Shown here in pieces: positions 56,572-57,844 of a stretch of 64,000 bases of DNA. The position numbers and the translations under genes are program-made. The number at the start of each line of letters is the position of its first letter. The first letter of the stretch is position 1. A model generated the notes under the pieces. That model was not told the origin of the DNA, made no database searches, and was given only the letters and a program-made list of their open reading frames with translations. Source of the stretch: Lolliginicoccus suaedae (GTDB taxonomy: Bacteria > Actinomycetota > Actinomycetes > Mycobacteriales > Mycobacteriaceae); the NCBI RefSeq assembly GCF_008312885.1, contig NZ_VSSO01000001.1:1054001-1118000 (forward strand), written 5' to 3'.

Positions 56572-57663
56572 CTAGGTCCGGTCGTCCTCGGACGAGCGCT
56601 CCCGCGCCGATTCGACAGCAGCGCGGTCCTCCGCTGCTCGCTCCTCGGTCGCTCTCTCCTCGGCAGCGTTCTCCTCGTCGAGCTCGATCTTCTCGTGACG
56701 GGTCTTGACCAGGCTCGCGACAGTGACGATGACAAGCACCGAGACGATGATCAGCATGGATAGGCCCGTGGAGATTTCCGGCACAGCGACGTGCTCGCCA
56801 CCGTTGATGAACCCAAGCTCGTTCTCATGGAGCGCGTGGAGGATCAGCTTGACGCCGATGAAGCCGAGAATGATCGACAGGCCGTGCGAGAGGTAGACGA
56901 GCCGCTCGAGCAGGCCGCCGATGAGGAAGAACAGTTGCCGCAGGCCCATCAGCGCGAAGGCGTTGGCGGTGAAGACGATGTAGGGCTCGCGGGTGAGGCC
57001 ATAGATCGCGGGGATCGAGTCGAGCGCGAAGAGCAGGTCGGTGAGGCCGATGACGACGAGGGCGAGAGCGAGCGGGGTGAGCACGCGCTTGCCGTCGATC
57101 TTGGTGATGATTCGGTCGCCGTCGTAGGTCTCGGTGGTGGGAAGGACCTTGCGGGCGAACTGGATGATCTTGGATTCCTTCTGCTCCGCGCTCTCGTGCC
57201 CGCCGGACATCGCGTCCTGGAGGAGCTTGAACGCCGTGTAGAGCAGGAAGATCCCGAACAGGTAGAACACCCAGCTGAAGGTGTTGATCGCCGCCGCGCC
57301 CGCGGCGATGAAGATGCCGCGCATGACCAGTGCCATCGCGATACCGATCAGCAGGACCTTCTGCTGGTACTCGCGAGGTATGGAGAACGCGGCCATGATG
57401 ACGACGAAGATGAACAGGTTATCGACCGACAGGGCCTTCTCGGTGATGAAGCCCGCGAAGTACTCGCCGCCGTACCGGGTGCCCCACACTCCCATGACCA
57501 CGAAGCCGAAGATGATGGCGAATCCGATATAGATGGCCGACCACATCCCGGATTCGCGCAGCGTCGGCGCGTGCGGGGTCCTGACGTGGGAGTAGAAGTC
57601 GAACACGAACAGCGCGATGATCACGCCGATCGTCACGAGCCAGATCCACATGGGGACATTCAT
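56572..57663 (-). CDS. TerC-family membrane protein, manganese-related
   Basis: 363 residues, eight to nine membrane segments. TerC hallmarks: FITEKALSVDNLFIFVVIMAAF, LDSIPAIYG and FALMGLRQLFFLIGGLLERLVYLSHGLSIILGFIGVKL. The intracellular C-terminus is 45 residues of Glu/Arg repeats. TerC/Alx proteins export Mn(II) (E. coli Alx, Bacillus homologues) or assist metalation of exoenzymes. ATG 57663 lies ten bases after GGAGG; a TTG at 57672 is unlikely. A candidate yybP-ykoY (Mn) riboswitch lies in the leader at 57697-57797, which is the usual control of this family. Confidence 0.93.
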   Translation of the reverse strand: MNVPMWIWLVTIGVIIALFVFDFYSHVRTPHAPTLRESGMWSAIYIGFAIIFGFVVMGVWGTRYGGEYFAGFITEKALSVDNLFIFVVIMAAFSIPREYQQKVLLIGIAMALVMRGIFIAAGAAAINTFSWVFYLFGIFLLYTAFKLLQDAMSGGHESAEQKESKIIQFARKVLPTTETYDGDRIITKIDGKRVLTPLALALVVIGLTDLLFALDSIPAIYGLTREPYIVFTANAFALMGLRQLFFLIGGLLERLVYLSHGLSIILGFIGVKLILHALHENELGFINGGEHVAVPEISTGLSMLIIVSVLVIVTVASLVKTRHEKIELDEENAAEERATEERAAEDRAAVESARERSSEDDRT

Positions 57664-57696
57664 CAGTGCCAAACCTCCGGGTCACAGGACGGAACT

Positions 57697-57797
57697 CCGG
57701 AGGTCTCTCCCATTAGCATGATCAGCTAACCAATGGCACCGGACTGCTCTCGCGGTCGTGATGACGACACCATCGTTCTCGGGATACTCCCCTTCGG
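57697..57797 (-). promoter_or_regulatory. yybP-ykoY manganese riboswitch of terC
   Basis: The minus-strand leader contains the two conserved blocks: AAGGGGAGTA near the 5' end (57795-57785) and GAGAGACC near the 3' end. They close on P1, CCGAAGG (57797-57791) with CCTCCGG (57703-57697), one A-C mismatch. Between them TTAGC-TGATCAT-GCTAA makes a hairpin next to GAGAGACC. The 3' P1 strand CCUCCGG is also an exact complement of the terC Shine-Dalgarno CCGGAGG (57680-57674), suggesting that Mn binding frees it. Confidence 0.75.
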
Positions 57798-57809
57798 TGC
57801 CCTCATTAA

Positions 57810-57844
57810 ACCATCCCTGGACGCTCGCGGCATCCAGGGATGGT
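57810..57844 (-). terminator. Terminator after ftsK
   Basis: A perfect 12-bp stem ACCATCCCTGGA/TCCAGGGATGGT with an 11-base loop, followed on the minus strand by TTAATGA. It lies 23 bases after the ftsK stop and separates ftsK from the terC leader. Confidence 0.8.

Follow-up and report, generated by a model that had tools for sequence, protein, structure and literature searches.

The question raised by this locus is whether the leader of terC in Lolliginicoccus suaedae is a metal-sensing riboswitch and, if so, at which step of gene expression it would act. The window, here the whole stretch of 64,000 nucleotides that was analysed (contig NZ_VSSO01000001.1, positions 1,054,001 to 1,118,000), encodes TerC on its minus strand from an ATG at 57663 to position 56572 (Pfam TerC, E 1.8e-50), with ftsK upstream on the same strand. 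This ATG is kept among relatives, the product is 86-90% identical to Lolliginicoccus TerC, and a search of the whole source genome returned this TerC gene only, with no MntP and no GDT1 gene found. The Shine-Dalgarno (SD) sequence CCGGAGG is situated at 57680-57674 (minus strand), 10 nt upstream of the ATG; a TTG at 57672, only 1 nt from the SD, was considered as the start codon and ruled out. The leader is very probably a Mn2+ riboswitch of the yybP-ykoY class that switches terC translation ON. The aptamer fold, the class membership and two mutually exclusive pairings, along with their conservation, are supported by the sequence and by comparison with its relatives, and both the ligand (Mn2+) and the switching direction are adopted by analogy with the class. 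The features of the locus are as follows.

57805-57810, minus strand: putative -10-like hexamer TTTAAT, read from the sequence
57673-57797, minus strand: terC leader RNA, yybP-ykoY-like aptamer plus SD arm
57791-57797, minus strand: P1.1 5' strand CCGAAGG, pairing with 57697-57703
57785-57790, minus strand: L1 5' strand GGAGUA, invariant in 37 leaders, role by homology (PMC6754395)
57781-57784, minus strand: P1.2 5' strand UCCC, pairing with 57708-57711
57731-57775, minus strand: P3/L3/P3.2 hairpin, with L3 (UCAUCAC) at 57764-57758
57712-57730, minus strand: P4 hairpin GUUAGC/GCUAAU
57704-57711, minus strand: P1.2 3' strand GGGA (57711-57708) and L1 3' strand GAGA (57707-57704), from the 37-leader alignment
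57697-57703, minus strand: P1.1 3' strand CCUCCGG, the predicted anti-SD switch strand, complementary to the SD arm here and in most related leaders
57673-57680, minus strand: SD arm CCGGAGGU, pairing with ACCUCCGG at 57704-57697
56572-57663, minus strand: terC coding sequence

Every core element of a yybP-ykoY aptamer is present in the leader, namely P1.1, both L1 strands, P1.2, P3 with L3, and P4. An earlier note on this DNA had recognised two sequence blocks of the class, and these are indeed found on the minus strand at 57794-57785 (AAGGGGAGTA) and 57709-57702 (GAGAGACC). The same note had the blocks closed by a P1 helix, CCGAAGG/CCTCCGG; this helix exists but is imperfect, with six of its seven pairs formed and an internal mismatch (A57794.C57700). 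In an alignment of 37 leaders, onto which the structure was drawn by hand, the homologous helix is 82% paired and shows changes on both sides in four of seven pairs. The L1 strands, GGGGAGUA and GAGACC, are flanked by P1.1 and P1.2, and A57788 of the 5' strand is by homology the counterpart of A10, which makes an A-minor contact in yybP-ykoY crystal structures (PMC6754395). P1.2 is 98% paired among relatives, with exchanges of the types UA/AU/CG and CG/UA; P3 and P3.2 are 89% and 93% paired, respectively, with many compensatory changes in the alignment; and P4 is 71% paired, all six of its pairs having changed on both sides in relatives. The asymmetric L3 loop on P3 contains an adenosine, A57762 in the window, that is invariant across the 37 leaders within the local context CG-UCAUCAC. 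The L3 adenosine, A41 or A48, coordinates Mn2+ in the crystal structures, and A57762, which matches UCA41 of Lactococcus lactis, is the predicted Mn-coordinating residue (PMC6754395).

The pattern GGGGAGTA-N50-80-GAGAGACC occurs in 39 of 201 genomes of the family, compared with one match for the backward pattern, and most of its matches are terC leaders; further leaders were added by way of terC homologues. Several strict pattern matches (L001, L002, L003, L013, L019, L021 and L022) have no L3 core and were set aside as chance. Over the 37 leaders, 86% of cells are paired against 70% in shuffled alignments, and both-side changes are seen in 27/32 pairs. The covariation score is 0.48, as opposed to 0.19 for shuffled and 0.07-0.14 for slid alignments, and GGGAGUA is kept in 37/37 leaders.

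A covariance-model search, which the earlier note had suggested as a check and whose failure it had named as refuting, gave opposite outcomes with the two models used. RF00080 of Rfam 15 leaves the terC leader unmatched, both at its gathering cut-off and even at E 10. This is uninformative for the window leader because RF00080 likewise fails outright to match the leader of E. coli alx, itself an established class member, and scores E. coli mntP at 41.6 bits, below its own cut-off of 45. The printed consensus of RF00080 starts 5' of GGGGAGUAG and stops at P4; the 3' GAGACC block is missing from it. The second model, R1, was built from the 37 actinobacterial terC leaders, with alx and Dechloromonas terC outside the training set. 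R1 scores the window at 85 bits, where it marks the one significant site of the source genome, and recovers both alx (55.5 bits, E 3e-12) and Dechloromonas terC (50 bits, E 7e-11); it has no match to E. coli mntP. Membership of the yybP-ykoY class, also proposed in the earlier note, is supported by structure, covariation, gene context and the covariance-model match to alx. RF00080 of Rfam 15 probably undercounts the class widely, with 0/61 genomes of the family over its cut-off against R1 matches at E 0.01 in 266/395 genomes of the class, although these are different genome samples.

A terC gene lies downstream in 30/30 of the top R1 loci and in 18/20 further R1 loci; among the latter, one of the two remaining loci precedes GDT1 (L128:1978-2565 and upstream). 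At the other, L124:332, the aptamer match is good and nothing recognisable as a gene follows it. An RF00080/R1 match in L086 (1505-1623) precedes mntP; L128 and L086 both come from other actinobacteria. TerC, GDT1 and MntP are all Mn-homeostasis families.

Of the systems already described, alx and mntP of E. coli, both translational ON switches, contain the same L1/L3 core as the window leader, and alx, which R1 finds, likewise stands before a TerC-family gene. The leader of cg2157 (terC) in Corynebacterium glutamicum is, as in the window, an actinobacterial terC leader; Rfam of 2013 predicted it as yybP-ykoY with 49.1 bits, and RNA-seq detected it, the transcript beginning at the aptamer 5' end (PMC3890552). 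The class also appears in PMC3890534. The Xanthomonas oryzae and L. lactis aptamers known from crystal structures (PMC6754395) share the P1.1-L1-P1.2 and P3-L3 legs and the invariant L3 adenosine. Their junction is four-way, however, whereas the multi-helix junction of the window RNA, supported by covariation, is three-way and lacks P2, apparently as in alx according to the R1 alignment. In addition, their proposed platform is a transcription terminator, unlike that of the window leader.

The window leader instead offers a strand that can be shared between aptamer and ribosome site. As the earlier note claimed, CCUCCGG (57703-57697) is a perfect complement of CCGGAGG (57680-57674), and the helix even reaches 8 bp (ACCUCCGG/CCGGAGGU) with an extra pair, A57704-U57673; the spacing between the two segments is 16 bases rather than the 17 reported. 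The P1.1 3' strand thus complements the SD, this pairing and P1.1 are mutually exclusive, and a terminator scan of the terC leader returned no intrinsic terminator. In the ligand-free fold, the whole SD is paired with the P1.1 3' strand at a probability of 0.99-1.0. With the aptamer core and the helices fixed, the OFF and ON forms have energies of -38.6 and -33.2 kcal/mol (the sequestered form being 5.4 more stable), and with the remainder free to fold these become -52.7 and -46.1 kcal/mol (6.6 more stable), all of them values that omit Mn-dependent L1-L3 docking. In the X. oryzae RNA, such docking stabilises P1.1 (PMC6754395). The unconstrained fold has a z of -2.7, and the free minimum-energy structure disrupts the aptamer core.

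At low Mn, the P1.1 3' strand would accordingly be expected to pair with the SD, and the resulting 8-bp hairpin would block initiation. At high Mn, L1 and L3 would dock around Mn2+ and stabilise P1.1, which would then reclaim the CCUCCGG strand and free the SD. In E. coli mntP, the SD is likewise masked and is freed by Mn, with Rho adding polarity (PMC11647493). The terC leader differs in that its P1.1 3' strand would itself be the direct partner of the SD, at a distance of 16 nt within a short leader, whereas the mntP leader spans 229 nt.

The mntP precedent, where Rho-dependent termination is linked to the OFF state (PMC11647493), also lends itself to another account, that the switch acts chiefly on transcription, either because a hidden SD exposes untranslated mRNA to Rho or because the hairpin terminates directly. 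Rho could be involved in the terC leader in addition to SD masking, but a mainly transcriptional switch is unlikely. The terminator scan is empty and no U-run was found after the sequestor hairpin, and 57/58 leaders have at most four T in the 8 nt that follow it, which makes intrinsic termination unlikely; moreover, the conserved helix is directed at the SD.

A further alternative is that the anti-SD match is incidental, with CCUCC kept only for P1.1 and GGAGG only as the SD. Each of these motifs is expected independently, and tails swapped among leaders still reach at least 7 bp in 48% of pairs, a figure explained by most leaders sharing one type. An incidental match is nevertheless very improbable in view of the conservation of both partners. 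A helix uninterrupted over at least 7 bp, beginning at the invariant CC and reaching into the SD, is found in 56/81 leaders as opposed to 1.6% of shuffled sequences. Conservation of the tail extends past P1.1 (p4, p5), and that of the arm past the SD core (CC). Across 53 distinct combinations, and with the SD anchored regardless of pairing, tail positions pair with the SD arm in 83% (p4) and 85% (p5) of cases, compared with 68% and 40% with P1.1; the conservation of p4 and p5 is best explained by the sequestor, since arm pairing exceeds P1.1 pairing. Compensatory variants of tail and arm include CCUCCAG/CUGGAGG, CCUUCGG/CCGAAGG and CCUCACGG/CCGUGAGG, and lineages that altered the tail altered the arm too, as in CCUCCAGUUC/GAACUGGAGG, CCUUCGGUC/GACCGAAGG, CCUCACGG/CCGUGAGG, CCUCCGACC/GGUCGGAGG and CUUGUGG/CCACAAG. 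In six leaders of one genus (L004-L010), the helix extends to 10-12 bp with one bulged A. Per-column covariation between tail and arm reaches 0.89 at p2 against a null maximum of 0.85, and the remaining columns fall inside the null range; so small a margin over shuffled data reflects the dominance of one tail/arm type and the high conservation of the bases. The argument for the sequestor is accordingly carried by the compensatory cases and not by per-column covariation. The claim of the earlier note that the P1 strand can sequester the SD is thereby borne out at the level of sequence comparison, the P1.1 3' strand being conserved across the class as an SD complement, including bases that P1.1 hardly uses. 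Nocardioides-like, Kocuria and Brachybacterium leaders (L062, L067, L099, L105, L049 and L048) keep the aptamer, and their SD pairing is weaker or different.

That the aptamer senses a divalent metal other than Mn2+, altered specificity having been suggested for some yybP variants (review, PMC7266159), is scarcely credible against the invariance of L1 and of the L3 adenosine and the position of its relatives before TerC, GDT1 and MntP genes.

Taking the leader as a translational Mn2+ switch, a broader proposal is favoured with some reserve: most actinomycete terC genes may share one compact switch of this kind, in which a single strand complements both the P1.1 5' strand and the SD arm, lineages change the three segments together, and current Rfam misses nearly all cases. 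It predicts Mn-responsive production of TerC throughout most of the class, mycobacteria-related lineages among them. The riboswitch class, the link to Corynebacterium terC (PMC3890552) and the translational mode (mntP) are already known, and the terC leader is in this respect a good but expected case of a known switch type. New are the assignment of the window leader to the class, the comparative evidence for its platform and the Rfam blind spot. A literature search, with subscription papers mostly outside its reach and thus giving weak evidence of absence, found no paper on the actinobacterial platform. In the literature found, the class seems merely catalogued in actinobacteria, for which this leader provides a clean and testable translational Mn switch.

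With respect to transcription of the leader, TTTAAT at 57805-57810 would place the predicted terC start near the P1 5' end. Hexamers resembling a -10 lie 8-20 nt upstream of GGGGAGTA in 35/82 leaders, compared with a shuffled mean of 4.6. Just upstream, 3' of ftsK, a strong hairpin (CCAUCCCUGGA/UCCAGGGAUGG) is followed by UUUAAU (57843-57811, minus strand); it is likely the ftsK terminator, whose U-rich foot may also serve as the -10 of terC. The mycobacterial terC loci L039, L041, L044 and L045 are without the riboswitch, and in these a -10-like TAATGG or TAGTAT lies immediately upstream of the start codon, an arrangement resembling that of leaderless mRNAs. Two other loci contain a pair of aptamers ~1.2-1.3 kb apart. 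In L123 (276 and 1558, minus strand), each precedes its own terC copy, and in L068 (1376 and 2532), the second copy is followed by an SD and a start codon.
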